From Alistipes sp. (GTDB lineage Bacteria; Bacteroidota; Bacteroidia; Bacteroidales; Rikenellaceae): a stretch of DNA of 34,836 nucleotides. The stretch covers positions 1 to 34,836 of the forward strand of contig JAGBEH010000005.1 of the NCBI GenBank assembly GCA_017937125.1. The letters are read 5' to 3'. Of the stretch, positions 14,489 through 34,836 are shown in pieces; positions within the stretch are counted from its first letter, which is position 1; the number at the start of each line of letters is the position of its first letter. The translations under genes were made by a program, and so were the position numbers. The notes beneath the pieces were generated by a model that had not been told where the DNA came from, ran no database searches, and saw only the letters and a list, made by a program, of their open reading frames with translations.

Positions 14489-14538
14489 CACGTGAACGAT
14501 GACGTAATACGAAATTACGCAACGTCGTCATTTACGTG
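14489..14538 (+). promoter_or_regulatory. Nested dyad in the glpD promoter/leader
   Basis: An inner stem 14503-14508/14514-14519 (CGTAAT/ATTACG, loop ACGAA) is flanked by ATGACG 14499-14504 versus CGTCAT 14526-14531, and by CACGT 14489-14493 versus ACGTG 14534-14538. It begins right after the -7 box and straddles the predicted start point. This fits an operator for a dimeric regulator or a 5' hairpin; which one is unknown. Confidence 0.45.
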
Positions 14539-14566
14539 TGAAAAGCAACTGAATACCGAAAAATAT

Positions 14567-16135: not shown

Positions 16136-16227
16136 CGCGACGGTTCGAAAGTCGCCCTGCGGCGGCAGTTCGTGTCGGCGGGTGACATACGGTGTCTCCG
16201 CTCCGAATCGGACCTCCGGACATACAT

Positions 16228-16263
16228 AATTAATCCCCGCCGATTATTCGGCGGGGATTAATT
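16228..16263. terminator. Bidirectional terminator between glpD and the GDPD gene
   Basis: A perfect 16-bp stem, 16228-16243 with 16248-16263, loop TTAT, with AT-rich ends on both sides. It serves glpD on the plus strand and the long lipoprotein operon on the minus strand. Confidence 0.9.
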
Positions 16264-16282
16264 ATTCCGTCATCGTTCCCGA

Positions 16283-17215
16283 TCAGTCGTGCAGACCTCT
16301 CGAGCGCAGATAGTTGAGCAGGTACTCGGGACGGTCGGTCTGGATGAGCGTCGCGCCTAAGTCGATCATCCTGCCGTAAACGGCATCGGGGTCTTTCGTT
16401 GCGAATGCCGTGTCGTCATCCAGCCCGCCGCACAGCGACGGCCACAACGTATTCACCCACAGCTTCGAACCGCTCTCCACGACTTTGTGCATACACTCCT
16501 CGACCTGCGGCGTGAACTCTTTCCAGCATACTTCGTATGCCAAAGGCACTATGCCGTTGTCCATATACTGTGCGAAGAGCGCCTGCCCCTGCGGCTTGAG
16601 TATGTCGATGATGGGCATATACATCATATTGCGGGGATGCTCGGCGAATTTCGCGGCTACGACGTCGGTCGCGCGCTTGCCCTTGATGAGTATCTGATCC
16701 GTAACGCCCAACTCCTCGGTTATGGCCAGCACGAGGTCGTAGTACTCGTATCCCTGATCGACATTCACCACGATACGGTCCTTGCAGACCTCCAACGCTT
16801 CGCGCAGGGTCGGCATACGCATATCTTCGGTCTTGACGTTGTGCGCACGGCGCAGGACGCAACGGCGTATCGAGTCGTAGGTGATCTCGCTCACGCGGCC
16901 TTTGCCCGACGTGGTGCGGTTGATCGTATGGTCGTGGCAGAGCACCAATACGCTGTCGGCCGTCAGTTTGAGGTCGAGCTCCATAATATCGACACCCATA
17001 GCTATCACCGACTCGATGGCGGCGATAGAGTTTTCGGGCCAGTTGCGCCAGTCGCCGCGGTGCGAAGCCACCAAAACGGTCTTCGACGAGGGGTTGTGCA
17101 GTTCGGCAACTATGCGCTCGGCACGATTGCCTTCGGCCTTGGTCTCCTCTCCGCAGGCTGTCGTCGCGACGACAGCCGCACAGAGAAGCAGTGTTTTTAC
17201 AAACAGATTCTTCAT
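16283..17215 (-). CDS. Glycerophosphodiester phosphodiesterase lipoprotein
   Basis: A 310-residue GDPD-family enzyme that hydrolyses glycerophosphodiesters to glycerol-3-phosphate and an alcohol. The N-terminus is a lipoprotein signal ending TTAC with the cysteine at residue 21, so it is membrane-anchored outside the cytoplasm. Catalytic and metal residues are visible: H52-R53 in SHRGDWRNWPENS, E79 and D81 in MELDLKLTAD, and H94 in LCHDH. The late segment LIQTDRPEYLLNYL is also family-typical. It lies 51 bases downstream of the 1233-residue lipoprotein gene on the same strand and may be the last gene of that operon, although a candidate internal promoter precedes it. Convergent glpD would use its product. 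Confidence 0.92.
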   Translation of the reverse strand: MKNLFVKTLLLCAAVVATTACGEETKAEGNRAERIVAELHNPSSKTVLVASHRGDWRNWPENSIAAIESVIAMGVDIMELDLKLTADSVLVLCHDHTINRTTSGKGRVSEITYDSIRRCVLRRAHNVKTEDMRMPTLREALEVCKDRIVVNVDQGYEYYDLVLAITEELGVTDQILIKGKRATDVVAAKFAEHPRNMMYMPIIDILKPQGQALFAQYMDNGIVPLAYEVCWKEFTPQVEECMHKVVESGSKLWVNTLWPSLCGGLDDDTAFATKDPDAVYGRMIDLGATLIQTDRPEYLLNYLRSRGLHD

Positions 17216-17246
17216 TTTTATCGGTTTTAAGTTCTTTTACATCGGG

Positions 17247-17278
17247 TAAAGTTAGCAAAAAAACGCTTATCTGACAAT
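17247..17278 (-). promoter_or_regulatory. Possible internal promoter before the GDPD gene
   Basis: Minus-strand TAACTTTA (17247-17254) is one mismatch from TAnnTTTG, with ATTG (17275-17278) 20 bases upstream. It overlaps the end of the preceding gene. Weak evidence for separate expression. Confidence 0.35.
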
Positions 17279-20200
17279 TAAATTCTCGCTTTCGTGCCCC
17301 AATACCGTCTGCTCGGCCACGCTGCGCAGATAGGCGGCCTTTTCGGGGTCGAGCCCGCAGTCGGGAACCTCGCCCGTGAAACTTTCGCCGTAAATCACCA
17401 GATAGTTTACGCACGCCTTCAGATAGGCCCCGTATTCGGACTGGTGCTTGTTGTCGGTGTAATAGAGGTTTATCGACGTGTTCTTGCGCGCCTCCTTGAA
17501 GGCCTTGCCTATAGGCGACATCCACGCCGAGTTGGCCTGAGCCATTTCGAGGGCGCCCTTTTCGCTCAGAGCATCGAAATTCTCGAACGATTCGAATCCG
17601 CCGTAGGAACTTGCGCTGAATGCCCACGTTTCCTCCATAATTATCTGACATTGCGGCGACTTCGCTTTGATGAGACCTGCGAGCGTCGTTGCGCCGTTCA
17701 ATATCGACGCATCGGCCGTCTGACCGTACTTCGCGGGATTCTGGCTCTGGTCCTGAATGAATGCATAGTCGAAATCACCCTGATCGATCGCGTCGAGCGA
17801 CATCAGCAGCGAGCAGTGCTGCGTGAAGTTCTGCGAACCTTTCAGGTGCGTGCGGATGCGCATATAGTGCCCTTGGCTGTAGGCTATCTCCTTGAGCATC
17901 CAGACGGGATTGCTGTAGTACGAGAACGAGTTGCCCAGACAGAGTACCTTTTTGGTGTCTTTGGGTTCGGCCGTGCCCAAGTTCTGCACATAGCTGCCCG
18001 TAAATCCGAAGAGCGGCATAAGGCTGCGGCCCAATTTGGATATATCCTGCGGCGTGTCGGATGCCGTCATATTGCCGACCGCGCGGCAGCGTATCTTCAG
18101 CTCACCGTCGTCGATGGCCTTTGCAAGACGTATGGTCTGCATTACGGTCGCGTGCTGGTAGCCGCTGCTGTCGATATTGCCCGACGAACGGTAGGTGTAT
18201 TTTATCGAGGCGTCTTCGGGAGCCGTACGCAGATCTTCCTCGACGGATTTCCATTCTCCGTCTTCGAAATACTCTACGATGTAGTATTTGGGCGCACCCG
18301 TACCGCCGCCCATCGTGGCGTCGAACTCTATGGCCGTGCCGGCGTCGAGATGCTGCACGGGGAATGTATAGAGCCAATAGTCGCCCTCGCCCAACGTCGA
18401 GACGGTCGGTTTGTTGCCGTATATCGTGTAGCTTAGCGGCGTTGCGGCATACTTTTCGCCGCGTACGGCCGTGATAGCGCCTGAAGTTCCCGACGTGGCG
18501 GGTATGATGTGATTCTCGGTCCACGAATCGCCGTATATCGGCAGGTCATTGGCCGAAAATACCCATTTGCTCGGGAAAGCATCGCCGACGGGATCCTGCG
18601 TTACAGTCATCACGGCGGTCTTGTCGGCCGCATCCTTGGCCGTAAACGTTACGGTGCCCGTGCGGGGCGAGGTCGATGTATTGTGGTCGGCGACGATCTT
18701 GATATTCTGAACCGTGGCGCTCTTCGTCCCTTCGGTTACGGAGTTGCCCGACAGATCGGTGGCGTGCAGCCAAGCGTCGGAAGTTACCGTCCAGTCGTAC
18801 TCCGCTGCCGAAAGCTCGGCTACGATCGCTTTGGTTCCCCATACGTCTATCGTCGCCGTTGCGGGCGTTACCGAGAATTCGGCTGCGGCCTGCGCTTCGG
18901 CCCAAACTATGGTCTCGGTCGTTACGTGCGTGGCTGCCGAGGAGTGGTCGCCGATATACTGGAAATAGTTCGCCGCATTGAGCCCTATCAGCGAGTACGA
19001 ACCTCCCTCGTAGGTGCCGAGGTCGCCCTGCGCGACGCAGGAGGTGAATACGGCGTCCTTGTTGCACTGCCCGAAGAACGTGCCGCGATAGGAGGTGCGG
19101 TCGGTGATTATTCTTCCGTAGTTGGCGCAGTGGGTGAATTCGCAGTTGGCGTGATCGACCAAGCATACGATGCCGCCTGCGGCACCCGATGTCTTGCATA
19201 TCAGATCGCCCCTGTTCACCGCCTCTATCAGTTTGCTGCCCGTACCCGTCAGACAGGTGATATTGCCGATGCGGGCACTGCTTGCCGTTGCGAACGCGTT
19301 CACATTTTCACCGTAGTTGGTGCACTTGTTGATGACGGTTCCGCGGTTCGCGGCGCCGACGATGCCGGATGCACGTCCGACTTTGGTGTTCAGGTTGCCG
19401 TAGTTGTCGCACTTGGTCAGATAGTTGCAGCAGGTACCGTTGTTCAGGATGCTGCCGAAACCGAGAATGCCGGCTATATGCACGCCCGTTGCACCCGATT
19501 TGGTATTGCCCGCACTTTCGGCCGTTATGTTGCCGTAGTTGGTTACATTCTCGATATGGGTGTCGCTGTCGCCTGCGAATGCGAAGCCGATGACGCCCAT
19601 CGTAAGACGTACGTTGTCTCCCGAAGCCGCTTCGGCCGACACGGACATAGATGCGTGGTTTTCGATGTTGCGTACCGTCGAGTTGTAGACGAACCCTGCA
19701 AGGACACCCGTATCCGAGCCTTTTTGCGCAGCTACGGTCAGCGAGCACGATTCGTCGAATACGATGTTCTCGACGATGGCGCCGTCGGTCAGTGCGCCGA
19801 ACATACCCCACGCATTGGAAACCGTGCCCGATGCACGGCATACCATATCGAAATTCCTGATGGTGTGCCCGTCTCCGTCGAAATGACCTTTGAACGTATT
19901 GCCCGTCAGCGATTGTATGCTGTGGCTCGCCCACGAGAACGAAGCCTCGCCTATGGGCGTCCAGTTCTCGACGCCTGCCATATCGATGTCGTCGAGAAGT
20001 TTCACTACGCCGTTTTCGTCCTGCCATTCGGCGATGCTCGCGCCTGCGTTTACGGCCGCCGCGAAGGATACGAGGTCGTCTGCCGAGCCTATGCCGCCCG
20101 ACGAGCCGAGTGCGTAGAGGGCTTTGGCGATGTGTTTCGACGAGTAGACGCCCTCTGCTTCGTCATAAGTCTTGAGACCCGACTTGAAGATGTTTTTCGA

Positions 20201-20968
20201 ATAGCTGTTGCCGTCTTCGGTCGAGAGCGTAAGTTTCAGTCCGTCGGCCGAGGTGAAACGGCCTACGGGGAACTTTATCGTCTGCGGTTTGGTGAGGTCG
20301 GCGCCGCCGTCGAATGCTATCGTCATTTTTGTGCCCGTACCGTCGGCTGCGGGCGTCAGTGCCAGCGTCTGCGGATCTACCGTGCCCGTGAAGGTTATGA
20401 AACCGTCGAACGTTTCGGCCGTCGCGGGCTCTATCGAGATCGACTGCGCTTTCGAGGTGAGCGTGCCGGCGTCTATGCGCAGTTCGAGCACCGAGAAGAT
20501 ATTCTTGAACGCTAATTTCAGCGTCCCGCCGTTATCCATTCCGTTGGGCGTACCTACCAACGGCGCCTGCGCGGCATTGGTCTGGTTCTCTCCCGCGAGG
20601 GTTATAGTCCGCTCGGCGGCTATGCCTACGGTTCCCTCTGCCGTCGTGGGAGGGTAGTATGCCGTCAGCGGTTTGGCCGCATCGTAGGACTCGATGCCTG
20701 CCGTGCTGGTGAAGGTTACCGATGTCCCCGCCTCGGCCGTCGAATATTCGTATGCACGGCCGTCGTAAACGACGGTTATGGCATCGCCGGCCTCCCACGT
20801 GCTTTTTCCCTCGTTGATGTCGGTGCGCGTAGTCGGCAGACACGAAGCTTCGATTATCAGACCCTTGCCCGCAACGGGGTGCTTGGGGTCGGTTATTTCG
20901 GGGTCTGCGGCGCAACTTACCGCCGTTGCGGCGGCCAGCAGCCCCAATATTGTGTGTTTAAGTTTCAT
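17267..20968 (-). CDS. Giant surface lipoprotein: fimbrillin-like, beta-repeat stalk, BACON, DUF4886/SGNH head
   Basis: A 1233-residue protein with a lipoprotein signal (cysteine 19, AVSC). Modules: fimbrillin-like N-terminus (about 35-285); a cap beginning IGSADDLVSFAAAVNAGAS (about 293) and GLUG-like right-handed beta-helix repeats with recurring NYGN patterns (to about 680); a BACON domain (about 697-792); a beta-sandwich-like segment (about 800-985); and a C-terminal DUF4886/SGNH domain. The head has KVLCLGNSFSYYS with the likely nucleophile serine, and DNKHQSEYGAYLKA with the likely Asp/His. The head should be an esterase or related hydrolase; substrate unknown. BACON domains usually bind carbohydrate or mucin. 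Unlike its three relatives it lacks the DUF4988 N-terminus. It follows the 1422-residue gene after 71 bases that include a hairpin. Confidence 0.8.
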   Translation of the reverse strand: MKLKHTILGLLAAATAVSCAADPEITDPKHPVAGKGLIIEASCLPTTRTDINEGKSTWEAGDAITVVYDGRAYEYSTAEAGTSVTFTSTAGIESYDAAKPLTAYYPPTTAEGTVGIAAERTITLAGENQTNAAQAPLVGTPNGMDNGGTLKLAFKNIFSVLELRIDAGTLTSKAQSISIEPATAETFDGFITFTGTVDPQTLALTPAADGTGTKMTIAFDGGADLTKPQTIKFPVGRFTSADGLKLTLSTEDGNSYSKNIFKSGLKTYDEAEGVYSSKHIAKALYALGSSGGIGSADDLVSFAAAVNAGASIAEWQDENGVVKLLDDIDMAGVENWTPIGEASFSWASHSIQSLTGNTFKGHFDGDGHTIRNFDMVCRASGTVSNAWGMFGALTDGAIVENIVFDESCSLTVAAQKGSDTGVLAGFVYNSTVRNIENHASMSVSAEAASGDNVRLTMGVIGFAFAGDSDTHIENVTNYGNITAESAGNTKSGATGVHIAGILGFGSILNNGTCCNYLTKCDNYGNLNTKVGRASGIVGAANRGTVINKCTNYGENVNAFATASSARIGNITCLTGTGSKLIEAVNRGDLICKTSGAAGGIVCLVDHANCEFTHCANYGRIITDRTSYRGTFFGQCNKDAVFTSCVAQGDLGTYEGGSYSLIGLNAANYFQYIGDHSSAATHVTTETIVWAEAQAAAEFSVTPATATIDVWGTKAIVAELSAAEYDWTVTSDAWLHATDLSGNSVTEGTKSATVQNIKIVADHNTSTSPRTGTVTFTAKDAADKTAVMTVTQDPVGDAFPSKWVFSANDLPIYGDSWTENHIIPATSGTSGAITAVRGEKYAATPLSYTIYGNKPTVSTLGEGDYWLYTFPVQHLDAGTAIEFDATMGGGTGAPKYYIVEYFEDGEWKSVEEDLRTAPEDASIKYTYRSSGNIDSSGYQHATVMQTIRLAKAIDDGELKIRCRAVGNMTASDTPQDISKLGRSLMPLFGFTGSYVQNLGTAEPKDTKKVLCLGNSFSYYSNPVWMLKEIAYSQGHYMRIRTHLKGSQNFTQHCSLLMSLDAIDQGDFDYAFIQDQSQNPAKYGQTADASILNGATTLAGLIKAKSPQCQIIMEETWAFSASSYGGFESFENFDALSEKGALEMAQANSAWMSPIGKAFKEARKNTSINLYYTDNKHQSEYGAYLKACVNYLVIYGESFTGEVPDCGLDPEKAAYLRSVAEQTVLGHESENLIVR

Positions 20969-20997
20969 CGTCTGATGTTTTGTCGGTTAATGCGCTG

Positions 20998-21025
20998 CGG
21001 CTCCCCGTTTTGCGTCGGGGAGCCG
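20998..21025 (-). promoter_or_regulatory. Hairpin between the 1422- and 1233-residue lipoprotein genes
   Basis: A 9-bp perfect stem, 20998-21006 with 21017-21025, 10-base loop. No T run follows on the minus strand, so it is more likely an mRNA-processing or attenuating stem than a full terminator. It marks the longest visible gap inside the operon. Confidence 0.45.
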
Positions 21026-21039
21026 TCGGACGCTGTTCG

Positions 21040-24000
21040 TTATTCTTTGTTGCCGTCGTTTTCGAACGGAATGTCGATAATGCCGTTGGAAGGCGTATTT
21101 TCTGCCGCCGACATATCGGTCACTTCGAACGGTTTTGCTATCGCATAGCGTGCGGCAGCCAAAGCCGTGAGACGGTTCACATCCGTTACGGGTGTGGAAT
21201 ACGCCGTCGAGGAGGTGTCGGATACGTCGTAGCGGAACGAGTTGTCATCGAGCTTTATGCCGTCGAATGCGGGAGATACGAGCATCTCGAATACCGCACA
21301 GGCAGCCGCATAGCGCGAAATTCCGTAGTCCATATGGTAGCCGTCGCGCGTGAGGTTCATCTCGTTGTCGAGCGACGAGGTGCGCAGGTTTTGCAGGACC
21401 GTACCCGTGGGGATTATCTCGTCCACTTCGGTCTCGTCCAGAACCTTTTTGGCCTGCGCAACGATCACCTCGAACATCTCGTCCTGCGTGGTGAAGGTCT
21501 TGTAAGGCACCGATCCCGAACCTATCTTGCCCATATTGAAATAGGCCTGCGACATAATGTATTCTATGCGCGGTTTCGTGCCGCCCTGGTCGGCCTTGAT
21601 GTTGTCTATCATCCCGACTATCGAGTTTTTCTCCTCGTCCGTCCAGCTCCACGCGCGATAGTTGCCCGTGTGCTCCTGCAACGTTACGATGTCCCACTTG
21701 TCGGATTTCACGGCCTGTTGCAGGGTCTGGCCTTTGGAGCTTACCCATACGTCCGTGTCGGGATAGAGCGTGTAGCAGGTGTAGTCCGAAACCGTGGCGT
21801 AACCGTTGTAGTATTCGGGTATCGTACGGCCGCCGTAGTACATATGCACTATCTTGACGGTCTTTATTCCCGCCGCCGCGATCATCTTGGGAAGATGCTC
21901 GACGGCATCTTTGGTGAACGAGTTGCCGATGCAGAGTATGCGCAGCGTCGGTTCGGGACCTACGGGGTCGCCGCCCTCCGAAGTACCTATCTGATAAGTG
22001 ATGTTCGACAACTGCGCTTTTTTGGCGCCTTGAGGCCCGAGGTAAAGCTCCTTGCTCGTTTCGGCATAGCTGTCGTAGATGTAGTTGCCGCCGTTGTATG
22101 CGCCGACATATCCTCCTGCGATGCAGTTCACCCAGGTGCAGGCTACGGTGTTGTAACCCCAGAATACGCCTCTGTCGCCGTCGGATATTACCTTGCCGTA
22201 GTTGGCGCATCCGCTGAAGGAGTTTGCCTCGTTGTTCGCCAGACTCAATATGCCGCCGATGCGTGCGCTGTTCGTCGCTATCAGGTCGCCGTGGTTCTCG
22301 CAGTCGATCATCGAGCAGCCCGTGCCGAGAATGACCGTGATGCCGCCCAGACGTCCCGTGGCGCCTATCGAGTTGGTCTGCGAGCCGTAGTTGAAGCACG
22401 AGTTGAGCGTGGTGTAGCTGTTTGCGGCACCTATGACGCCTGCCGTACGTGCGGCGTTGGATACGATATTGCCGTAGTTGGCGCAATACTCTATGTGATT
22501 GACATTCTTGTTCGTCGAGTCGGCCGAGGTTACGGCGCATACGCCGCCGATATGGGGTGCGGTGCCGAGCCCGTTGTTCGTATTGCCTTTGACGTCGGCC
22601 GTTATGTCGCCGTAGTTCTTAACGTTGTCCAGATAAGAGGACTGCGTGTCGCTGAAGCACAGGCCTATCATCGCTACGAATGCGCGCGCCGACGTGGCGG
22701 AGGTGCTGTCGTAGTCGATGGGGACGTATGATGTGCAGCCGACGACTTTAGAGTCTATAACGGCTCCTGCCAGAACGCCTGCCCATACGGTTGCGGGTGT
22801 TTTGACCGTCAGCGAACCCGTATCGGCTGCGCGTGCCGTCGTCGGTCGTCCGATGTTGAGGTTGCGGACTTCGGCGCCCTTGAGTACGCCGAACAATCCG
22901 AATGCACTGTCGTTTACGGTGGTGCTCGTCGAGAGCCTGAGGTTCTTCAACGTCTTTCCGCCGCCGTCGAAAACGCCCGTAAAGGCGTTTCCGGTAACGG
23001 CGACCGTACCGATGTTGGAAGCGGGGGCTATCGTGGCGTTGCCTATCGGCGTCCACTCCGTAACCGCCGACATATCGAGGTCGGCCAGCAGGTTTACGAC
23101 GCCGTTGTCATCTTGCCACTCTTCGAGCGACGCGCCTGCATTCACCGCATCGCGGAACGCGAGCAGCTCCTCGACCGTCCTGATGCCCTTGCCCACGGGA
23201 GCCGCACCCGCGAAAACGTTGTTTTCGAGAGCCGGGTCGGTCCCTGCGAGGTGGAAGAATATGTAGTTCGAGAAGTTCTCCTCGGTAATGTCCGTAACAG
23301 TGTAGGTGTCGTCCTCGGTGTAGGGACCTATCTTGCCGCCTATCTTGTTGTCCTTGATTATGCAGGCGGTCTTGTTGGTGTTCGAGCAGATGATGGCGAT
23401 GTATTTGTTCTCTGCGGCCTTGATAATGTCCGAACGGATCGAACCGTAGTTCTCGCAGCCGATGACCGATGTGGCCGCTACCTGCATCTGGCCGACGATA
23501 CCCGCCGCATATCCGTGCGTCGTGTCGCTCGCTACGGCGAAGGTGATGTCGCCGTTGTTCACGCAGCCCTCGATGGAGGATCCGTTCGTTATAAATGCCG
23601 CGATGCCCGCCGTACGGCAGTTGGATGCCGTCATTTCGGTATTGGCCAGCGCTGCATCGTTGGTGCAGTTCGAGATTGCGCCGCGATAGTTGAGCGCGCC
23701 TGCGATACCGCCCGTACGCGCTGCCTGTACGTTGAACTCGCCGTGATTCTCGCAATCCGAGATTCTCGTATAGCAGGTGCCCGACGATGTTCCGTTTACG
23801 AACCCTACAATGCCTCCGAGCTGTATGCCGTTGGCGCCGTTGTTCGTGGAGAGCGTATTTGCGGAACTCATAGCGCCGTAGTTGCGGCAGCCCTTTACGA
23901 CTATGTCGGTCGCATCGGTATGCGCAGCTCCGAGAATGCCGCCGACCTCGATACGCTTGTCCTTGATGCCCGTCTCGACCTTTATCGCGGCGCGGTTATC

Positions 24001-25308: not shown

Positions 25309-25330
25309 AGTTCGTTGTTTTTGCAGCAGG

Positions 25331-27769
25331 TTAGTTTACGGTATTGATCGACGGATTGAAATACTCGCCGTTCTTGTATGCGAATGCATTGTCTGCCGTT
25401 GCGTCGGGAGCCGTTTCGGGAGCATCCTTGTAGACCGAGTAGTCGCCTACCTTGCCGCCCATCGTGCAGCCCGAAACATTCGTCCACGTATCGGTCGATT
25501 TGCCCGAATAACCGCAGGCCCAAGCGGAACCGTTGCCGTCTACCGTATGGTCGGACAGGATTATGCCCAGGTTCTTGCAGGCTATGATCTGAACATTCGA
25601 GTGGCCGATGAAACCGCCCGTGCGGCATCCGCAATGCGAGAATACGTTGCCGTAGTTCACGCAGTTCTCTACCGTAGCCGACGGAGTCGTCTTCAGGTCG
25701 TCGGTACCGCCGATCAGGCCGCCCATACGTTTGGTGTTGTATGTCACGTTCGTCTGCCCCGCGATGTTGTCCTCCACCAGACCGTAGTTGTCGCTGTTGC
25801 GGACGTTACCGTTCATCAGCGAGCCGACCAGACCGCCCGTACGTCCCGTAGGACAGCTTATATGGCCGCGGTTTACGCAATAGCCCACGAGGTTCTTCTC
25901 GTCCTTGGCCATAAAGGCGCAGATACCGCCGACCTGCATCGAGGTCGCTCCCGCCTGCATATTTGAGATGATGCCCGTGCGTACGAAACCGTAGTTCACG
26001 CAGGTCGCCTTCTTCGATTTGCCGCCGACGGTCGAGCCTTTGATTACGGCTACTATACCGCTCGCGAAACAGAATTCCGAGTCGCCGCAGTCGCCCGTCC
26101 AGTCGATATTGTAATAGTTGGTTACGTTTTCGATCGTCGAGTTGAGGGCATAGACCGCCAGTGCCGCCACGCCCGTAGCTTTCGGAGCCTTGCCCGAGAA
26201 TGTCCACGTGCATTCGGTCTCGGCGTCGCCCAGTACGAGGTTGCGTATGGTCGCGCCCTCTATCGAACCGAAGAGTGCGTATCCCCATTTGCCCGTGCTC
26301 ATATCGGCCGAGTACTTCATATTCTTTATGGCGTAACCCTGGCCGTCGAACGTGCCCTTGAACGGATTTACGGTCGTATAGACATTGGTGTTGTCGGCCT
26401 TGCTGCCGTTCACGCCGCCGATAGGCGTCCACGTCTCTACGGCGCCCATATCGATGTCGTTCAGCAGTACGACGTCTCCCGCCTCGTTCTGCCAGCGCTC
26501 GATGCTCGCTCCCGCATTGACCGCGTTCGCGAAGGCTATGAGGTCCGTGGCCGAAGCGATACCGCCGCCACCGCCTTCGGGAATCTTGGGCGACTGCTTG
26601 ACGGTAATGGCTGCCGAGATGTCATAAAGCTTGTTGGCGAAACGTATTTCGCCGCTGCGGATGGCACCCGAGGCGTCTTCGTACGTGTCGGCCATAAAAC
26701 GATATGTCTTGGTCTCCATCGCGCGGGTGGTTACGGGTATGAGCCATTTCTGCGCCGACTCTTCGACGGTGACCGTATAGTCGATGTTCGCCGATACAGA
26801 GATGTCGAATTGCGTCATATCGCCTTCCAGAACGATGTCGTTTGCGGAACCCTGATACAAGGGGTCTTGTATCAAGGCCGTACCGTAGGTGAAGAAGAGC
26901 GGTTTGAGTACGGTGTTGCCGTCGGAGTGCGCCATAACGAGTATGTTGCCCTCCTCTTTGGTGCCGTCCATCGAGACGGTTATGGTCGATACGGCCGTAT
27001 CGATGTCGGCCGTTACGTTATACGAGGTGAAGATGTCCACTATGGCGTCCTCGGCCTGCGTACCTGCGACTTTGTATTTGATCTTCAACTTGGTCGAGGC
27101 ATCTGCCACCGAGTTGTAGACGGGGGTGTCGAATTCGAGTTTCAGAGCCTCGAACATCCTCATTCGGAACTCCGAGCCGTCGGCCAGCGTGAATACCGCC
27201 TCGCCCGTAGTCTCGTCTACGGCCGCCGAACTGAAGAGGATGTTGCTCGCATCGTTCGCGAGAACCTTGTTGCCCTTGTCGTCGGTCAGGGGTTTGCCGT
27301 TTACGGTCCAGAAACCCTCCTTGTCGATGCCTACCGTCGGCATTTCGCCGCCCACCTTGTAACGAACGGTTTTCGTGTCGTCGGTGTATATCCACTCCCA
27401 CGTTAGGCCGTTGTCGGCGGTTTGGCGCCAATACCATTCGCCGCCGTCCTCGCCTATGCCTATTACGGGCACCGTAACCACTTCCTTCTGTGTCGCCACG
27501 GTTATGCTTCCCGTGGTACCGTCCTCTTTCATATAGGTAATCACGTAGTTACCGTCGGCATCGGTTGAAATCATTGTTACGAACGTGCTTTGCATAAGTG
27601 TTGTCAGTGCCGACATCTGGGTGTCGAGCTTGCCGGCCGCCTGCTCCAGCTCGTCCACTATCGACCCTACGTCGTCGAGGTCCTGACGTATGCGCGTGTC
27701 GTCGTATTTCGAGCAGCTGCCCGCGAACAGCATCGCAACGAGCACTAATATATTGATGTATTTTTTCAT
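25331..27769 (-). CDS. Surface lipoprotein: DUF4988, BACON-like, beta-repeat stalk, no catalytic head
   Basis: An 812-residue lipoprotein (cysteine 19, AGSC, then SKYDD). A short coiled coil and a DUF4988 block (MISTDADGNYVITYMKEDGT) lead to a BACON-like segment (about 310-395) and a glycine linker PEGGGGGIASATDLIAF. The cap and GLUG-like repeats fill the rest. The tail (GFIGHSNVQIIACKNLG, ILSDHTVDG, GGKVGDYSVYKDAPETAP) closely follows the 1097-residue neighbour, but the protein stops just where the neighbour's glycosidase domain begins. It may be a binding or scaffold protein, or a relative that lost its head. I see no frameshift: the stop is clean and only 22 bases precede the next gene. 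Confidence 0.8.
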   Translation of the reverse strand: MKKYINILVLVAMLFAGSCSKYDDTRIRQDLDDVGSIVDELEQAAGKLDTQMSALTTLMQSTFVTMISTDADGNYVITYMKEDGTTGSITVATQKEVVTVPVIGIGEDGGEWYWRQTADNGLTWEWIYTDDTKTVRYKVGGEMPTVGIDKEGFWTVNGKPLTDDKGNKVLANDASNILFSSAAVDETTGEAVFTLADGSEFRMRMFEALKLEFDTPVYNSVADASTKLKIKYKVAGTQAEDAIVDIFTSYNVTADIDTAVSTITVSMDGTKEEGNILVMAHSDGNTVLKPLFFTYGTALIQDPLYQGSANDIVLEGDMTQFDISVSANIDYTVTVEESAQKWLIPVTTRAMETKTYRFMADTYEDASGAIRSGEIRFANKLYDISAAITVKQSPKIPEGGGGGIASATDLIAFANAVNAGASIERWQNEAGDVVLLNDIDMGAVETWTPIGGVNGSKADNTNVYTTVNPFKGTFDGQGYAIKNMKYSADMSTGKWGYALFGSIEGATIRNLVLGDAETECTWTFSGKAPKATGVAALAVYALNSTIENVTNYYNIDWTGDCGDSEFCFASGIVAVIKGSTVGGKSKKATCVNYGFVRTGIISNMQAGATSMQVGGICAFMAKDEKNLVGYCVNRGHISCPTGRTGGLVGSLMNGNVRNSDNYGLVEDNIAGQTNVTYNTKRMGGLIGGTDDLKTTPSATVENCVNYGNVFSHCGCRTGGFIGHSNVQIIACKNLGIILSDHTVDGNGSAWACGYSGKSTDTWTNVSGCTMGGKVGDYSVYKDAPETAPDATADNAFAYKNGEYFNPSINTVN

Positions 27770-27791
27770 ATCCTTATATTTTTTGTCTCAG

Positions 27792-30700
27792 TTATTTTAT
27801 GCGAACGTGCATATAGTTCAGACAGCTGCGCTCGTCGCCGTTGGAGTCGCACGACTTGCAGACGAGACCGCCCGTTTTGGTCCACATCGAAGTGGAGCCG
27901 CCACCGTCGAACCGTATGGCATTGTACATACCTAATTTCTCCATTACCCGATAGAGCTGGTAGTAGTTCAGACCCGTTCCGGAAGATGACGTTCCGCTTA
28001 CGCAGACGATCTTGACTACGGTGCCGCTCTCGTCGGCTCCGATTACGGTCGCGGGTTTGAGTTCCTTGTCGGTTATGTTGCCCCATGCCCCCTTGTTGAG
28101 GAAGCGGTACATACTGCCGTTGTGCATAACTATCGATTTGTTCTGGTCGCCTATGGCGAAGTCGCCCTTGATCGATATGGCATCTCCCGCCTTGAGGTGT
28201 GCGAACTTGTCGGCGGAATCGCCTGTGAGCTGGAGCACCCATTCGTCGCGATTCTCGACGAACGGAATATCTATCGCCGCGTTGTTGCGTCCGTCGATTA
28301 CGGCCGTTACCGTTCCGTCGATATAGCCGCAGTTCACCTTGAGGTCGTTGTTGCTCTTCGCTACGACGAACAATGCGTTGGAGCTTACCTCGTTGAAGAT
28401 GCCCGGATGGGGCTCTTTCTTGAAGCGCGAGGTGTAGACGTTGGCCTTCTGGCAGTATTCGTAGCCTGCGGGTACGGGCGTGTGTTGTGCCACGATGGTG
28501 TCGTTTACCGAGTAGTATTCCAGTTCCGTGTCGCCCGCCTTTACATAACCCGAGAAGGTTCTGTTGTCGAAGCTTATCGAACGGTCGGAGAAGAACGTGA
28601 AACCGGGTCGGTGGTTGGTGAGGAAAGCGCGAGCGTACGCGTTATTCACGAATACGGGTTCGTCGTATTCGATATGCGCCGCGCGGCCGAATCCGAGGTC
28701 GCTGTAGAAGAATCCGGTATTTACGCCCGCCACGATGTCGCGTCCCTCCGAGGTGCGGCGCAGGCAGGTCTCCGAGAGCGTCTCGCGCAGGTTCTTACCG
28801 TTGTTGTGGTTGCCGTTCTTGTTGGGGTTCAGGCATATCTCGTCGGCGTAGACCGTTTCGAGCATTACGTTCGGGTTGCTGAGGTCTACCGTGATGACGT
28901 AAACGTTCGACGAGTTGTTCGTGAGGTCGTATTTGGTGTATGTCACGCCGCTGCCGAGCGAAACCTCGTCTTCTACCTTCCAGTCGTAGTACTCGGCGTC
29001 CTGATCGTTCAGACCGTTGTCGGACGGGCTGAACGTGCCGTGGCGTACGGCCGTGGCGTATGTAGCCGCAGGTGCCGTTTCGGGCGCGTCCTTATAGTCG
29101 GTGTAGTTGCCCACCTTGCCGCCGATGACGCACTGCGTGATGCTCGATATGGTCTTGTTGTATCCGCAAGCCCAACCCGAGCCGTGGCGGTTGCTGCCGT
29201 CTACGGTGTGGTCGGAGAGGATTACGCCCTTGTTCTCGCAAGCGGTGATTACGCCCTCGTTGTGTCCGACGAAGCCGCCCGTACGGCAGCCCAATTGCGA
29301 AAAGACATTGCCCTCATTGACGCAGTTTACGAGTTTGCCCGATGCCGCCGCACCGCCTGCCAGTCCGCCCATACGCTTGTATGCGGGGTTGGGACCGCCG
29401 TGTACGCCGTTTACATCGTCCTGAACGAGGCCTTTGTTTACGCAGGAGGTCAGCGTTCCGCCGTTCACTACGCCCGCGATGCCGCCGCCGCGACCCGCAG
29501 GTGCGCTTATGCTGCCGTTATTGACGCATTCGGTCAAGGCTGCCGTTCCCATCGTGAAGCCGCAGATGCCGCCCTGGTGGAAGCCGCTGTTGGTACCGTT
29601 GCCCGTGTTGTCGGTCTTGTCGCACGTCTGTTCGCCGTCGTTGATGCAGCCCGTCAGCGTTCCGCCATTCACTACGCCTGCGATGCCGCCGATGCGTACC
29701 GATGTGTTGGATGCGTCGCTGCCCTTGAATGCTATCGACACCTTGTTGGTGCATCCCGTAATTTTACCCTCGACATAACCTGCGAAAGCACCGATAGCGC
29801 TGCCCTGCGGAGCTGCACCCGTAAGAGTTATCCTGCCCTCGATTGTGAGGTCCTTTATCTCGCCCTCGCTGCCGAGTGCCGCAAACAGGCCGTGCGCCGC
29901 ATTGCCGTCCGCGAGGTCGAATGTCCAGTCCACGTTCCTGAGTGCGTAGCCGCAGCCGTTGAATATGCGGTTGAATACCGTTTCGGACGGTGCGTACGTT
30001 ACTGCCGTGTTGGCGTTTGTCGTGTTAGGTTCTACCTTGCCGCCGATTACGTAATCGCTCCAGTCCGTGCCCGACATATCGATGTCGTTCATCACCCGAA
30101 CCTCTCCTTCGATCATATATTTGGCGACGCTCGCGCCGTTGTTCACCGCCAGAGCGAAAGCCTTCAGGTCATCGGCGGAGCGGATGCCCGTAGGTGCGCC
30201 CTCCATAGTCGTGAATGCGAGCGGCTTGATTATGACGTTGTCCGTGCCGTCGTAGAAGATTACGGTCATCAGGCCGTTCTCGAAACGCTCGGGGAACGTG
30301 ACGGTGATGGTCTTTGCAGCCTTGTCTATCGTCGGCTCGTTGATGCCCGAATACTTTTCTATGGCGAGTACCGACGTTTCGGTCTGGCCGACGAGCGTAT
30401 AGTTGATTACGAGCGGTTGTGCGATATCCTTGACCACCGTTTTCGTCTCGATGTCGAACAGTACGTTGAACCCGTCGTTGATCTGCGCCGAAACGGTGAC
30501 GCCGTTGCCGAGCGTGAATGTCACCGTTCCGCCTTCGACGGCTATGTCGGTGATTACCGATGCCGCTTTGCCCTCCGATTTCACGGGGTTGCCGTCGGCA
30601 TCCTTTATGCGGACTCCGAATATCGTCCAGTACCCCTCGTCGTCCACGCCTATCTTCGGCGTACGTCCCGTTACGGGTATCTTTTCGCCGTCGGTATCGA

Positions 30701-31085
30701 GCAGATATGATGTCTTGCCCTTGACGGTCGTGGTCCAATACCATACGTCGCCATCCTGCTGCATACCGATTATCGGCTGCGTGTCGGCGTCTTCCATCGT
30801 CGCGACGTTTATCCGATGTTCCACATTGTCCTGATCCTTGTAGGATATTATGTATTTGCCCTGTTCGTCCTGCGTAATCGAGGTTATCGCCCCGTTATTG
30901 CCGACGATGAGGCTCAAGGCGTCCAGCTGCTCCTGCATCGACGAGATCTGCGTGCGCAGGGCATTCAGATCTTTGTAGATCTTGTCGATGTCTTTCCAGA
31001 GCGCCGAATCGTCGTATTTGTCGTTACAACCGACGCTGCATAGCAGCGAGAACGCTGCCATACACATAAATATTAGTCTCTTCAT
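27792..31085 (-). CDS. Surface lipoprotein with phosphodiester glycosidase (NAGPA-type) head
   Basis: A 1097-residue lipoprotein (cysteine 20, SVGC, then NDKYDD). A coiled coil at about 25-58 and a DUF4988 block (ITSITQDEQGKYIISYKDQD) come first; the stalk begins IRSADDLKAFALAVNNGAS near 298 and continues in GLUG-like repeats to about 700. Residues about 713-1097 form a phosphodiester glycosidase domain, the family of mammalian N-acetylglucosamine-1-phosphodiester alpha-N-acetylglucosaminidase: VAGVNTGFFYSDLG (about 785) and the hallmark IRFDGGGSTSMW (about 1062). The family removes sugars joined through a phosphodiester. It is 22 bases before the 812-residue gene and 36 bases after the nuclease gene. 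Exact substrate unknown. Confidence 0.87.
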   Translation of the reverse strand: MKRLIFMCMAAFSLLCSVGCNDKYDDSALWKDIDKIYKDLNALRTQISSMQEQLDALSLIVGNNGAITSITQDEQGKYIISYKDQDNVEHRINVATMEDADTQPIIGMQQDGDVWYWTTTVKGKTSYLLDTDGEKIPVTGRTPKIGVDDEGYWTIFGVRIKDADGNPVKSEGKAASVITDIAVEGGTVTFTLGNGVTVSAQINDGFNVLFDIETKTVVKDIAQPLVINYTLVGQTETSVLAIEKYSGINEPTIDKAAKTITVTFPERFENGLMTVIFYDGTDNVIIKPLAFTTMEGAPTGIRSADDLKAFALAVNNGASVAKYMIEGEVRVMNDIDMSGTDWSDYVIGGKVEPNTTNANTAVTYAPSETVFNRIFNGCGYALRNVDWTFDLADGNAAHGLFAALGSEGEIKDLTIEGRITLTGAAPQGSAIGAFAGYVEGKITGCTNKVSIAFKGSDASNTSVRIGGIAGVVNGGTLTGCINDGEQTCDKTDNTGNGTNSGFHQGGICGFTMGTAALTECVNNGSISAPAGRGGGIAGVVNGGTLTSCVNKGLVQDDVNGVHGGPNPAYKRMGGLAGGAAASGKLVNCVNEGNVFSQLGCRTGGFVGHNEGVITACENKGVILSDHTVDGSNRHGSGWACGYNKTISSITQCVIGGKVGNYTDYKDAPETAPAATYATAVRHGTFSPSDNGLNDQDAEYYDWKVEDEVSLGSGVTYTKYDLTNNSSNVYVITVDLSNPNVMLETVYADEICLNPNKNGNHNNGKNLRETLSETCLRRTSEGRDIVAGVNTGFFYSDLGFGRAAHIEYDEPVFVNNAYARAFLTNHRPGFTFFSDRSISFDNRTFSGYVKAGDTELEYYSVNDTIVAQHTPVPAGYEYCQKANVYTSRFKKEPHPGIFNEVSSNALFVVAKSNNDLKVNCGYIDGTVTAVIDGRNNAAIDIPFVENRDEWVLQLTGDSADKFAHLKAGDAISIKGDFAIGDQNKSIVMHNGSMYRFLNKGAWGNITDKELKPATVIGADESGTVVKIVCVSGTSSSGTGLNYYQLYRVMEKLGMYNAIRFDGGGSTSMWTKTGGLVCKSCDSNGDERSCLNYMHVRIK

Positions 31086-31121
31086 AGTAGAGAATTTTGA
31101 AATTATACAAGGTTATTTCGG

Positions 31122-31916
31122 TTAATCGAACAATTCGTTCAGCACTTTCGCCAATCGGTGTCCCGCCTTCAGTATCTGGCTTTCGACCAGAGGTACAGCC
31201 TCGTTGAGGAAATCCTGACCTAAGCGTTCGTCGGGTTTGGCTATGTCGAACTGTTTTTCACAGCAGACGGCGGCATCGTGCAGCCAGTCGCGCAGCGTCC
31301 CCTCGGTTACGGCACGCCGCTCGGCGGGCGACAGTCTGTCCAGCTCTTCGGCCCATTCGCTTACGGACCATATGCGTGCGGTAGTGATTATCTCATTGTC
31401 CCATACGCTGTGTACGTAGAATTTGTGAGGTTTGTGGTACTTGTCCTCGAACTTCACGTCGTACTTCATATTGCGGCCCGCATATTTGATGTGGGCGGGG
31501 CAGTGCATATCGCCTACAAGGTGGATCACATACTTCAGATTGACATTCACGGCCGAATCGGGCAGCTCTTTGTAGTGCCTGAGTTCGCCGATGACTCTCT
31601 CCAGCCCGTAGATGGCATTGCCCTTTTGCGGGTCGAGCAGGTCGTCCGTATAACGGCATTCCGCATCTACCGGAGCTACGTGCCAGTAGGTCGTGAATTT
31701 GTATTCGGGCGTGTGGCGGTATTCGTCGCACCACTTGGCGTAGTAGACTATCGAATGCCCTCCCAAATAGTTCTCGATGCGCTTTTTAGCACGCTTGGTG
31801 AGATTGCGCTCGGCGATTTTGGCTATCGTTTCGTGCCCTTCGCGCCCCCACGCCGACGCCTTTTGCGAAGGCGTCAGCATCAGGAGAGCGAACAGTAATA
31901 TTATCGTCCTTTTCAT
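31122..31916 (-). CDS. Secreted S1/P1-family zinc nuclease
   Basis: A 264-residue enzyme of the phospholipase C/P1 nuclease superfamily, which cleaves phosphodiesters or 3'-phosphates with three zinc ions. The signal peptide ends KASA before W23, so the mature protein starts with the tryptophan whose amino group binds zinc. Further ligands are visible: H28, the aspartate in WCDEYR, the histidine in TYWHVA, H132, D136 and H142 in HLVGDMHCPAH, and H169/D173 in VHSVWDNE. Cys replaces the usual Gln in DxHQPxH. I start at 31916 because the longer frame would run into susD. It lies 13 bases after susD, so it is cotranscribed. It could act on nucleic acid or on another phosphodiester. Confidence 0.92.
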   Translation of the reverse strand: MKRTIILLFALLMLTPSQKASAWGREGHETIAKIAERNLTKRAKKRIENYLGGHSIVYYAKWCDEYRHTPEYKFTTYWHVAPVDAECRYTDDLLDPQKGNAIYGLERVIGELRHYKELPDSAVNVNLKYVIHLVGDMHCPAHIKYAGRNMKYDVKFEDKYHKPHKFYVHSVWDNEIITTARIWSVSEWAEELDRLSPAERRAVTEGTLRDWLHDAAVCCEKQFDIAKPDERLGQDFLNEAVPLVESQILKAGHRLAKVLNELFD

Positions 31917-31929
31917 ATCGGGCGGCGTA

Positions 31930-33723
31930 TCAATATCCTTCGTTCTGAGAGAGCGCGCCGCCCGTAGCGATACGCTGGGCTTCGGGAATAGGCCACAGAT
32001 AGTCTCGCACTTCGTTCCATACGTAAGTCTCCATATTGTACATAAGTACATATCCGTGATCGCCCTCCGAAAGGGTCAGATCCGTATCGACGTTGTATGC
32101 CGTCAGTGCGGTAGAAGGTTTGGTGCCGCGATAGAGCAGAATGTCGGGTTCGTTGTCGCCGTTCATATCTATCTCGCCCAATCCCGCGAAGTAGATGCCT
32201 TCGAAACCCTTGTGTTCGTATGCGTTGGGTGTCAGGAACTGTCCCTCTTTCCAGCGGAGCATATCCCACTGGCGGAAGCCTTCGGCAACCAGCTCGATCG
32301 TACGTTCGCGGCGTATTTCGAGAATTACGCCCGTGTTGTCGCTCTTGGTAACGTTGGGATAGTAGCCGGCGAGCAGCGCATCGGGAGCACTGTTGGCATC
32401 GGCCATCGTAAGGCCGCCCATTCCCACGCGGTGGCGTATGGCATTTACCGTCAGGTCGATGTCGTCCTGCGTGAGCGTGCCGAGTTCGGCTTTGGCTTCG
32501 GCATAGTTGAGCAGGACTTCGGGATAGCGGAACAGCGGCCAGTCGGTCGTCGAGGTCGTCGCCGTATTGTGCGAGTCGTCGCTGATGAACTTTATGATGC
32601 TGTAACCGCTCAGGTCGCTGGTGAGCGTCTCTACGGTCTCGTCTTCCTGACCGATCTGCTTATAACCGGGCGCCAACAGGGTCTGCGACATACGCGGGTC
32701 GCGATCCTTGAACGACTCGGCGTAGGACATAGTGGCGTATCCCTCCTTGTCCTGAACTTTCGAACCGTCGGCCATAAGATAATGGTTGGTGAAACGGCGC
32801 GTAGCGCTGATGCGGGCATTGCCCAGCAGGGCGAACTGCAAGCCGTGGCGTACGGTTACGGCATCCCCGTTTGCGAAGCGTATGCCGAGGATGGTCTCCG
32901 AAGGATCGGCATCTTCGAGTACGAAGAAGTCGCGGTATGGGCCGACGCCCTTCGCATCCTTCTCATAGATCGAATATTTCTTGGACTCGATGATGAGTTT
33001 GGCCGCATCCGCCGCCTGTTCGAGGAACCAGTCTGCCGAAATCGTCACTCCGTCTACGGTCTCGTCCTCGATGTTATGGTACTTGCGGAACGTACCCTCG
33101 TAGAGGGCCGCACGCGATTTGAGTGCCAGAGCGGCGTATTTCGATACGTGATACATCGGGTTCGACGGCCACGCTTCGGGCAGCATATCGTACGCATTGT
33201 CTAAATTTTTAAGCACTTGATACATAACGTATCCGCGGCTGTCGCGCGGCTTTTTGAGCGAAGCCCAGTCCGTGTCGGATATCACATAGTCGTAGTAGGG
33301 TACGTCACCGTATTTCTTGACCTTCTCGAAGTAGAAGAATGCACGGAAGAAATGAGCTACGCCTCTGTACTTCGTACGAACGGCTTCGTCGGAGCAGTTG
33401 CTGTCGTAGGCGAACTGGTAATTTATCCAGCGCAGGTACTGCCATGCTCCCGTTCCCCAGTTTTCGCTTTCGGGCGTGCGGGTTCCGCGTGCCACCGAGC
33501 TGAGCGACGAGGCTACGTAGTCGTCGGCATAGGTCTTGAGAAAATCGTCCGGCGAGGAGAACTGGTTGTAGTATCTGTTCGACCACAGTTCGAGCTCCTT
33601 GTCGCTCGAAAAGAAGGTTTGGGGAGGCAGATCCGTTTCGGGCTCTTTCGTGAGGAAATCATCGCACGCCGAGAGCATTGCGACGGCCGAAAGAAGTATC
33701 GATATATTTATAAACTTTTTCAT
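31930..33723 (-). CDS. SusD/RagB-family nutrient-binding lipoprotein
   Basis: A 597-residue outer-membrane lipoprotein (cysteine 20, LSAC, then DDFLTKEPETD). It is the lid of a SusCD uptake pair. The SusD fold shows in WQYLRWINYQFAYD, the helix YRGVAHFFRAFFYFEKVKKY, the DVPYYDYVI strand, the later PLFRYPEVLLNYAEAKAELG, and REPRTIEL-type sequence RRERTIELVAEGFRQWDMLR. It starts 18 bases after susC. Ligand specificity cannot be read from the sequence, but the downstream phosphodiester-cleaving enzymes hint at a phosphorylated substrate. Confidence 0.95.
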   Translation of the reverse strand: MKKFINISILLSAVAMLSACDDFLTKEPETDLPPQTFFSSDKELELWSNRYYNQFSSPDDFLKTYADDYVASSLSSVARGTRTPESENWGTGAWQYLRWINYQFAYDSNCSDEAVRTKYRGVAHFFRAFFYFEKVKKYGDVPYYDYVISDTDWASLKKPRDSRGYVMYQVLKNLDNAYDMLPEAWPSNPMYHVSKYAALALKSRAALYEGTFRKYHNIEDETVDGVTISADWFLEQAADAAKLIIESKKYSIYEKDAKGVGPYRDFFVLEDADPSETILGIRFANGDAVTVRHGLQFALLGNARISATRRFTNHYLMADGSKVQDKEGYATMSYAESFKDRDPRMSQTLLAPGYKQIGQEDETVETLTSDLSGYSIIKFISDDSHNTATTSTTDWPLFRYPEVLLNYAEAKAELGTLTQDDIDLTVNAIRHRVGMGGLTMADANSAPDALLAGYYPNVTKSDNTGVILEIRRERTIELVAEGFRQWDMLRWKEGQFLTPNAYEHKGFEGIYFAGLGEIDMNGDNEPDILLYRGTKPSTALTAYNVDTDLTLSEGDHGYVLMYNMETYVWNEVRDYLWPIPEAQRIATGGALSQNEGY

Positions 33724-33741
33724 ATCTTTTTCTGCTTGAAA

Positions 33742-34836
33742 TTAGAACGTAATATCCACGCCTACGGAGAACGTACGCGAGTAGGGATAGAGACAGTCGT
33801 CGCTTGCACCCGTTACGGCCACTTCGGGATCGACGGTCTTGCAATATTTTTTCAGCGGCGACCAGTATGCGAGGTTCTCGCCCGATACGTATACGCGCAG
33901 CTTGTCGATGCCGCGTTTGATGGGCAGCGTGTAACCTAAGGTGATGTTCTTCAGACGCAGATAGCGTGCGTTCTGGAGATAACGGTCGGTCTTGACGCCG
34001 AGCGCACCCGTCGATGATGCCTGATAACCTCTGTGTCGGGGGAAGTAGGCATTGCGGTTGTCTTCGGTCCACGTCTTTTCGGGGAAGCCTTTGGCGATGA
34101 ACGACGAGCGCGGGAACTGGTATGTGTTCCAGAAATATGCGCACGTAGCCGCCGGCATCCAGTCGATTTGTCCGACGCCTTGGAAGAATACCGAGAAATC
34201 GATGCCCATCCAGTTGATGTTTCCTCTGAAAGAGTATGTGTAGCGCGGCAGCGAGTTGCCGATGATCTCCATATCTCCCGGGTCGTCCACCGTACCCGCA
34301 CCGCGGTTTATCTCGCCGCTGTTGTCCTTGTCGATGAAGCGGACGTCGCCGGCCATAAGTTTGTTGTAGGGTGCGGCGCTGTTGTATACGCCGTTGTTCA
34401 CTGCCTTGTCGTTTATGGCTGCCTGATAGCGTGCGGCCTCCTCGTCGGTCTTGAACAGACCCGCTACGCGGTAGCCCCATATCTCGCCGAGCGTCTGGCC
34501 CACATAGTGGTCGGATATGAGTTTGTCGGGATTGTTGTATTTGGTGATAGTGGATTTGTAATCGCCGAGCGATGCGCTTATGCCATAGGTGAACGGTTTG
34601 CCCGCCACGAGTTTCGTGTCGTGCCATCCGACGGTTATTTCATAACCTTTGGTCCGCAGGTCGGCGGCGTTCATCTTCGGCGAGGCGGCACCATAAACGT
34701 CGGGCAGCGTCAGCGCCGTAGTAAGCATATCTTTGGTGTCGCGGATATAGAAGTCGGCCGAAAGATTCAATCGGTTGTTGAAGAAGCCCAAGTCGATACC
34801 CAGGTTGTAGGTGATCACCGTCTCCCAAGTAAGGCC
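33742..34836 (-). CDS. SusC/RagA-family TonB-dependent transporter, C-terminal part
   Basis: The frame is open to the window edge, so only about the last 364 residues are present; the gene starts beyond 34836. The visible part begins LTWETVITYNLGIDLGFFNN, typical of the last third of SusC beta-barrels, includes RWGKA-like barrel strands such as YRVAGLFKTDEEAARYQ, DVRFIDKDNSGEINRGAGT and PRYTYSFRGNINWMGIDFSV, and ends PYSRTFSVGVDITF with the terminal phenylalanine of outer-membrane barrels. It forms the uptake pore with the SusD protein 18 bases downstream. The plug and TonB box are outside the window. Confidence 0.95.
   Translation of the reverse strand, partial: GLTWETVITYNLGIDLGFFNNRLNLSADFYIRDTKDMLTTALTLPDVYGAASPKMNAADLRTKGYEITVGWHDTKLVAGKPFTYGISASLGDYKSTITKYNNPDKLISDHYVGQTLGEIWGYRVAGLFKTDEEAARYQAAINDKAVNNGVYNSAAPYNKLMAGDVRFIDKDNSGEINRGAGTVDDPGDMEIIGNSLPRYTYSFRGNINWMGIDFSVFFQGVGQIDWMPAATCAYFWNTYQFPRSSFIAKGFPEKTWTEDNRNAYFPRHRGYQASSTGALGVKTDRYLQNARYLRLKNITLGYTLPIKRGIDKLRVYVSGENLAYWSPLKKYCKTVDPEVAVTGASDDCLYPYSRTFSVGVDITF

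Follow-up and report, generated by a model that had tools for sequence, protein, structure and literature searches.

The stretch of DNA analysed here (the window, 34,836 nucleotides) comprises positions 1–34836 of contig C3 (JAGBEH010000005.1) in the 2.16 Mb, 12-contig genome of Alistipes sp. (GCA_017937125.1), and holds an operon of eight minus-strand genes led by a susC–susD pair. This operon probably encodes an uptake system, similar to a polysaccharide utilization locus (PUL), that targets a glycan with phosphodiesters either linking its units or decorating them. Glycerophosphate-containing bacterial wall polymers of the teichoic-acid type are the most plausible class of substrate, with teichoic acid itself as the leading, if tentative, candidate. 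The gene set is beyond chance, because it recurs in other Bacteroidales.

Read from right to left, the series begins with susC, of which the window holds the C-terminal 364 of 1191 residues (33742–34836; PF00593, TIGR04056). The gene ends at contig position 37317, and the complete protein bears STN, CarbopepD_reg_2, and Plug domains as well as the barrel. It is followed by susD (31930–33723; PF07980, 8.3e-41, and PF14322), encoding a predicted outer-membrane binding lipoprotein, and by the gene of an S1/P1-family nuclease or phosphodiesterase with a signal sequence (31122–31916; PF02265, 4.5e-39; resembling 8qjl). The next four genes encode large lipoproteins: one with a DUF4988 domain, a repeat stalk, and a phosphodiester glycosidase (NAGPA) head (27792–31085; PF16378, PF09992, and a structural model of the head); a headless one with DUF4988 and repeats (25331–27769; PF16378); one with DUF4988, repeats, and a DUF4886 head of the SGNH type (21040–25308; PF16378, PF16227; 4i8i); and one with repeats, a BACON domain, and a second DUF4886 SGNH head (17267–20968; PF13004, and PF16227 on the last 234 residues). 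The series ends with a GDPD–DUF4996 lipoprotein (16283–17215; PF03009, PF16387), whose close solved relative is 3i10 (6.5e-62). Lipoprotein status is predicted from a Cys after the signal sequence.

Every gene that the first-pass annotation had named in this series of SusCD and phosphodiesterase-type lipoproteins was recovered by domain searches, although its list was incomplete, as the headless lipoprotein (25331–27769) had been omitted. The intergenic gaps, which had been put mostly at 13–71 bases, measure 18, 13, 36, 22, 22, 71, and 51 bases from susC to GDPD. As had also been claimed, no glycoside hydrolase or polysaccharide lyase domain is detected by Pfam in the eight operon genes, nor in the genes searched in approximately 10 kb past the right edge of the window, where glycoside hydrolases would have pointed to an ordinary glycan target. 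A consensus scan of positions 16000–34836 detected no terminator-like sites on the minus strand, and 18 on the plus strand, a number not above that of shuffled sequences. The adjacency of susC and susD is that of SusCD-type PULs, and FecR and extracytoplasmic function (ECF) sigma factor genes, the putative regulators typical of such loci, lie directly upstream of susC.

The conservation of the gene set was followed in 42 loci, obtained from a scan of named genomes across the Bacteroidales by alignment of the NAGPA head. Ten of these loci belong to genomes of the same family (Rikenellaceae) that are also included in the count of 268 genomes described below, and the other 32 lie outside the family; two of the 42 (L051 and L063) come from one genome. 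Genes were labelled by their best BLASTP hits to named proteins, and absences are soft, since many loci end at contig ends or at the limit of the 10 kb flank. Loci L038, L044, L046, and L047 (genome copies), L057, L069, and L071 were extended; L054, L070, and L072 were counted unextended. The NAGPA gene stands beside susC and/or susD in 38 of the 42 loci, both being absent, as fetched, from L038, L044, L060, and L064; the genome copy of L038 (L017) does show susD and susC. GDPD is found within the fetched flanks of 16 loci, and in at least 21 of the 42 after extension, which added L038, L046, L057, L069, and L071. The S1/P1 gene is present in five loci as first fetched and in ten after extension (adding L038, L046, L047, L057, and L069). 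EEP-family labels appear in nine loci, all of them outside the family, where susC/susD are found in 30 of the 32 loci, GDPD in 14, and a GlpT-like carrier in four. No locus of the 42, as read, holds S1/P1 and EEP together, a count softened by contig ends, and this distribution would fit interchangeable endo-phosphodiesterases. The earlier view of an operon built around three phosphodiester-cleaving families thus holds in part. SusCD and NAGPA form the core, and GDPD, which half of the loci or more possess, comes next; S1/P1 is optional, so that S1/P1 or EEP, together with the SGNH heads, make up a variable portion. One of the loci, L045, comes from a metagenome-assembled genome titled Ruminiclostridium sp., with a SusCD content typical of Bacteroidales; this record is probably mislabelled or contaminated.

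The search of 268 genomes within the family found the NAGPA head in 12. All 12 also encode a homologue of GDPD (E 1e-60 or better), compared to 61 of the 256 genomes without NAGPA (Fisher 8e-8, relatedness ignored), and in nine of the 12 it lies in the same locus as NAGPA. A susD orthologue stands beside the NAGPA gene in 11 of the 12 genomes, and on another contig in G170. The arrangement of the locus varies, with the NAGPA block running in the opposite direction to susCD in G132, G262, and G265, and the S1/P1 gene placed at the far end in G011, G013, and G016. Genes that are rearranged yet not dispersed speak for a shared function. A loss of the phosphodiesterase genes from orthologous loci, which had been proposed as a sign against the uptake system, was not borne out: NAGPA, and often GDPD, is kept.

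The NAGPA, GDPD, and S1/P1 enzymes of the operon look intact, as judged from their sequences. The NAGPA head matches PF09992 above the gathering score, and its DGGGS and ERS motifs are invariant across 36 aligned heads; in profile alignments, the DGGGS region matches animal NAGPA and 3ohg. Foldseek searches with the model of the head (pLDDT 91.2) returned 15 chains with E <0.001, all of them from Slr0280 (5h3k), BPSS2145 (6ozd), 3ohg, and animal NAGPA, with E values from 1.6e-18 to 1.1e-6 (7e-9 to 1e-6 for animal NAGPA). The moderate TM-scores of the model against animal NAGPA (0.38–0.42 by query, 0.49–0.61 by target) suggest a common core, with the bacterial head holding additions. In the GDPD protein, the match to PF03009 covers profile positions 1–96 of 244, and the motifs H52 R53 G54, E61 N62, and H94 D95, which we take to be catalytic, are invariant in 15 sequences. 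The long open reading frame of the S1/P1 protein begins within susD; translated from the likely start at 31916, the protein would have a signal sequence and, once mature, begin with Trp, a residue found in seven of eight aligned homologues and replaced by Phe in one. The His and Asp positions, presumably the metal ligands, are invariant in all eight. Past S1/P1, the end of the L057 locus, as extended, carries a second, stand-alone NAGPA gene (L093:2046-3362).

GDPD is linked to the import of its product by a GlpT-type carrier encoded after it in relatives. A gene of the major facilitator superfamily (MFS) lies at most two genes after GDPD in five of the 42 loci (L042, L048, L050, L056, and L069), as well as in G013, and in L069 the genes for GDPD, S1/P1, and the GlpT-type carrier are directly consecutive. 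Three of these MFS proteins were scanned, with PgtP, GlpT, and UhpC as best models, all below the curated cut-offs, so they are regarded as putative organophosphate carriers of otherwise unspecified substrate. Among GDPD regions lacking NAGPA, the seven chosen (66–77% identity) all hold such a carrier at most two genes away, and an eighth, around a 44% paralogue that the window genome itself encodes on contig C11, shows none nearby. This association replaces an argument of the first-pass annotation, which had drawn support from the use of glycerol-3-phosphate by the neighbouring glpD-like gene (14492–16135, plus strand; PF01266, PF16901), encoding a FAD-dependent glycerol-3-phosphate dehydrogenase. 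That gene lies outside the operon and is convergent with it, and none of the 42 related loci carries a glpD label in the portion fetched; it was consequently dropped as evidence. The other grounds for an uptake system are supported, namely a SusCD operon with phosphodiester-acting families that shows no detected glycoside hydrolase or lyase domain and is kept together in relatives.

The heads of the stalked lipoproteins are exchanged on a shared stalk. A single scaffold of DUF4988 and repeats bears a NAGPA head, a DUF4886 head, or no head (21040–31085), and in the two rumen relatives scanned (L062 and L065) the NAGPA head is paired with a BACON domain instead of DUF4988. Full-length homologues of the headless DUF4988 lipoprotein occur in 20 of the 42 loci, making it a frequent partner of the NAGPA gene and perhaps a surface binding protein. 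A hidden lyase was sought in this protein, but its model (pLDDT 81.9, pTM 0.61, 18 sequences) allowed no enzyme to be assigned, which is not proof of absence; the 50 matches listed are mostly low-TM ones to immunoglobulin-type repeats, with no useful PDB match. Membership in a hyaluronan-lyase family (NCBIfam NF058554, BT3328 lyase) was also rejected, since the match falls far under the cut-off and covers only the N-terminal third. Both SGNH heads retain the GNSF motif and a C-terminal D..H. Profile comparison between them gave an unconvincing probability of 5, and the head of 17267–20968, with no whole-protein DUF4886 match at E 0.1, was instead assigned by Pfam on its last 234 residues, which alone pass the cut-off (E 1.2e-9). 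Esterases of the GxDLY/Lipase_GDSL_3 type are found in L045, L049, and L056 (the latter by BLAST only). In eight loci, a protein of approximately 455 residues follows the DUF4886-type lipoprotein gene (e.g., L062:14039-15397); the one member scanned matches PF21311, a five-bladed beta-propeller receptor-binding domain of phages.

According to the proposed mechanism, SusC and SusD would bind fragments at the cell surface and import them, and the long stalked lipoproteins would present their enzyme heads outside the membrane. There, the NAGPA head is predicted to cut sugar-1-phosphodiesters, freeing a sugar that would be GlcNAc-like (N-acetylglucosamine) by family, the DUF4886/SGNH heads may take off ester groups, and S1/P1, or EEP in other species, would cleave internal phosphodiesters. 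The GDPD lipoprotein would then liberate glycerol-3-phosphate, which may be imported by the GlpT-type carrier encoded near GDPD in some relatives and elsewhere in the window genome. The operon would be controlled by the FecR protein and ECF sigma factor encoded beside susC. Wall teichoic acid consists of a glycerophosphate chain with D-alanyl esters, attached to peptidoglycan by a GlcNAc-1-phosphate link, and thus fits the proposed polymer in holding both a sugar-1-phosphodiester and a glycerophosphate diester. It is conceivable, although this is held only tentatively, that Bacteroidales strip and import the teichoic acids of Gram-positive bacteria by the joint action of these proteins. In such a process, the SGNH heads would remove the D-alanyl esters, S1/P1 or EEP and GDPD would cut the polyglycerophosphate chain, NAGPA would sever the GlcNAc-1-phosphate anchor to peptidoglycan, and the GlpT-type carrier would take up glycerol-3-phosphate. 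GlpQ of Bacillus is a GDPD-family enzyme. In Bacillus, teichoic acids are hydrolysed by GlpQ as an exo-enzyme and PhoD as an endo-enzyme, according to the available part of the source (PMC11188070). By analogy, the operon would share the GDPD chemistry, as well as this endo/exo split if S1/P1 takes the endo part. However, it belongs to another organism and setting, and shows no PhoD-type (calcineurin-like) domain.

Several observations weigh against a glycan joined by phosphodiesters. GDPD lies elsewhere in the genome in three of the 12 NAGPA-bearing genomes of the family (G011, G160, and G170), susCD occurs without NAGPA in G149, and only a stand-alone NAGPA is found beside susCD in G160, an arrangement seen in one Alistipes (L021/L039). 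Outside the family, S1/P1 appears in two of the 32 loci, as far as read. The GlpT-like carriers of the window genome, on contigs C9 (71% identity) and C6 (53%), are not beside GDPD, and the pairs of GDPD and GlpT-like genes away from the NAGPA locus may represent a generic salvage pair. Members of PF09992 need not act on GlcNAc, and DUF4886 had no known activity or substrate as of a 2022 review, in the part available (PMC9487903). On the supporting side, a GlcNAc-type gene module is suggestively placed near both Bacteroides loci, but rests mainly on this one genus, represented by two species. NagA-like and NagB-like genes being assigned from PF01979 and PF01182, the GM023 locus holds upstream two GH20-domain proteins, NagB-like and NagA-like genes, and an MFS carrier, and the XB1A locus, past unrelated genes, one NagB-like gene (L049, L096), a NagA-like amidohydrolase, an MFS carrier, and a GH3 protein; a NagB-like homologue also lies near L057 by BLAST clustering.

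Other functions have to be weighed against this evidence. The scavenging of organic phosphate, in which phosphate rather than carbon would be the goal and lipid head groups or similar small phosphodiesters the source, is a possible but not a favoured explanation, and it overlaps with the uptake of a phosphodiester-linked glycan, as the polymer could double as a phosphate source. The precedent is found in the PusCD loci of the Flavobacterium phosphate utilisation systems, which, in the portion of the source consulted, combine a SusCD-type transporter with phosphodiesterases or phosphomonoesterases and an ECF sigma factor or FecR, hold no CAZy enzymes, and are switched on by phosphate starvation; their enzymes are periplasmic and of the pf00149/pf16670 or PhoA type (PMC8115612). 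By family assignment, the operon also appears to join SusCD to phosphodiesterases or phosphatases, and His_Phos_2 phosphatases are encoded in or near five of the 42 loci as well as upstream in the window genome. However, Pfam detects none of the pf00149, pf16670, or PhoA enzymes in the eight operon genes, which instead encode NAGPA, GDPD, S1/P1, and SGNH heads, several of them on stalked lipoproteins, and in Bacteroidales. Conversely, pf00149 and pf16670 are the families tabulated for the PUSI phosphodiesterases, and pf09992, pf02265, and pf03009 are absent from the main text of that description (PMC8115612). In addition, the presence of a sugar-releasing enzyme and of four large lipoproteins with stalks suggests a polymer, and a GlpT-type carrier would bring in phosphate still bound to glycerol.

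A PUL that targets a glycan of host, fungal, or plant origin bearing sugar-phosphate caps (GlcNAc-1-P-Man or mannosyl-phosphate), and that relies on glycoside hydrolases from elsewhere, is somewhat less likely than phosphate scavenging. NAGPA proper takes GlcNAc off GlcNAc-P-mannose, according to the section of the source consulted (PMC12024695), and the two Bacteroides loci have GH20 or GH3 and Nag-type genes nearby, but such a target leaves GDPD and the GlpT-like carrier unexplained, and those recurrent gene families of the 42 loci that were identified include no glycoside hydrolase. The uptake of nucleic acids, in which S1/P1 or EEP would cut RNA or DNA and SusCD import the oligonucleotides, is far less probable still. 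It is favoured by the presence of one or the other enzyme in ten and nine loci, respectively, and by the solved relatives of S1/P1 being named as nucleases (8qjl). However, it has no need for NAGPA or GDPD, neither S1/P1 nor EEP is found in eight loci holding both of these (L040, L041, L045, L048, L049, L056, L062, and L074), and no nucleosidase or nucleoside carrier occurs among the three identified of the eight clusters common to at least three loci.

SusCD loci have mostly been interpreted through their glycoside hydrolases and lyases. The operon resembles these classical PULs in its susC–susD pair, lipoproteins, and ECF sigma/FecR genes, and differs from them in the lack of a detected glycoside hydrolase or lyase domain. 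Its NAGPA head shares Pfam family, DGGGS motif, and fold with the NAGPA/DUF2233 glycosidases (the animal uncovering enzyme and BACOVA_00430, 3ohg); unlike them, it is larger, at approximately 400 residues, and sits on a stalk of the DUF4988 or BACON type, encoded next to SusCD, with 10–16% identity to the matched structures. SusCD loci with phosphodiesterases are already known from Flavobacterium, and the enzyme set here differs from that given in the accessible part of the description (PMC8115612). No published description of the present gene set was found in the literature searched, a limited negative given its sparse coverage of subscription papers. A conserved class of phosphodiester-cutting SusCD loci would easily escape predictions based on carbohydrate-active enzymes, and would indicate phosphate-linked glycans, perhaps from the cell walls of neighbours, as a food source. 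It would also provide candidate roles for bacterial NAGPA-type enzymes, DUF4988, DUF4996, and DUF4886, and the complete genome of B. xylanisolvens XB1A, which carries the locus, offers a route to direct tests.

Beyond susC, the upstream region holds, in this order, the genes for FecR, the ECF sigma factor, a DeoR-type regulator, a His_Phos_2 protein, a FAD oxidoreductase, an MFS carrier, and CorA. The His_Phos_2, FAD oxidoreductase (PF12831), and MFS carrier genes between DeoR and CorA (L007:10033-14061, C3 ~40033–44061) are not present in G157, and the rumen locus L070 is likewise flanked by homologues of the His_Phos_2 protein and of the FAD oxidoreductase. Approximately 9 kb upstream of susC, and on its strand, is a gene of the EEP family (L007:16309-17232, C3 46309–47232). 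A second SusCD locus in the same genome (L008:6630-19999, C4 ~94.6–108 kb), whose SusD is 43% identical, encodes a DUF5689/BACON lipoprotein together with a protein of the EEP family, so that SusCD stands next to a phosphodiesterase-type enzyme there too.

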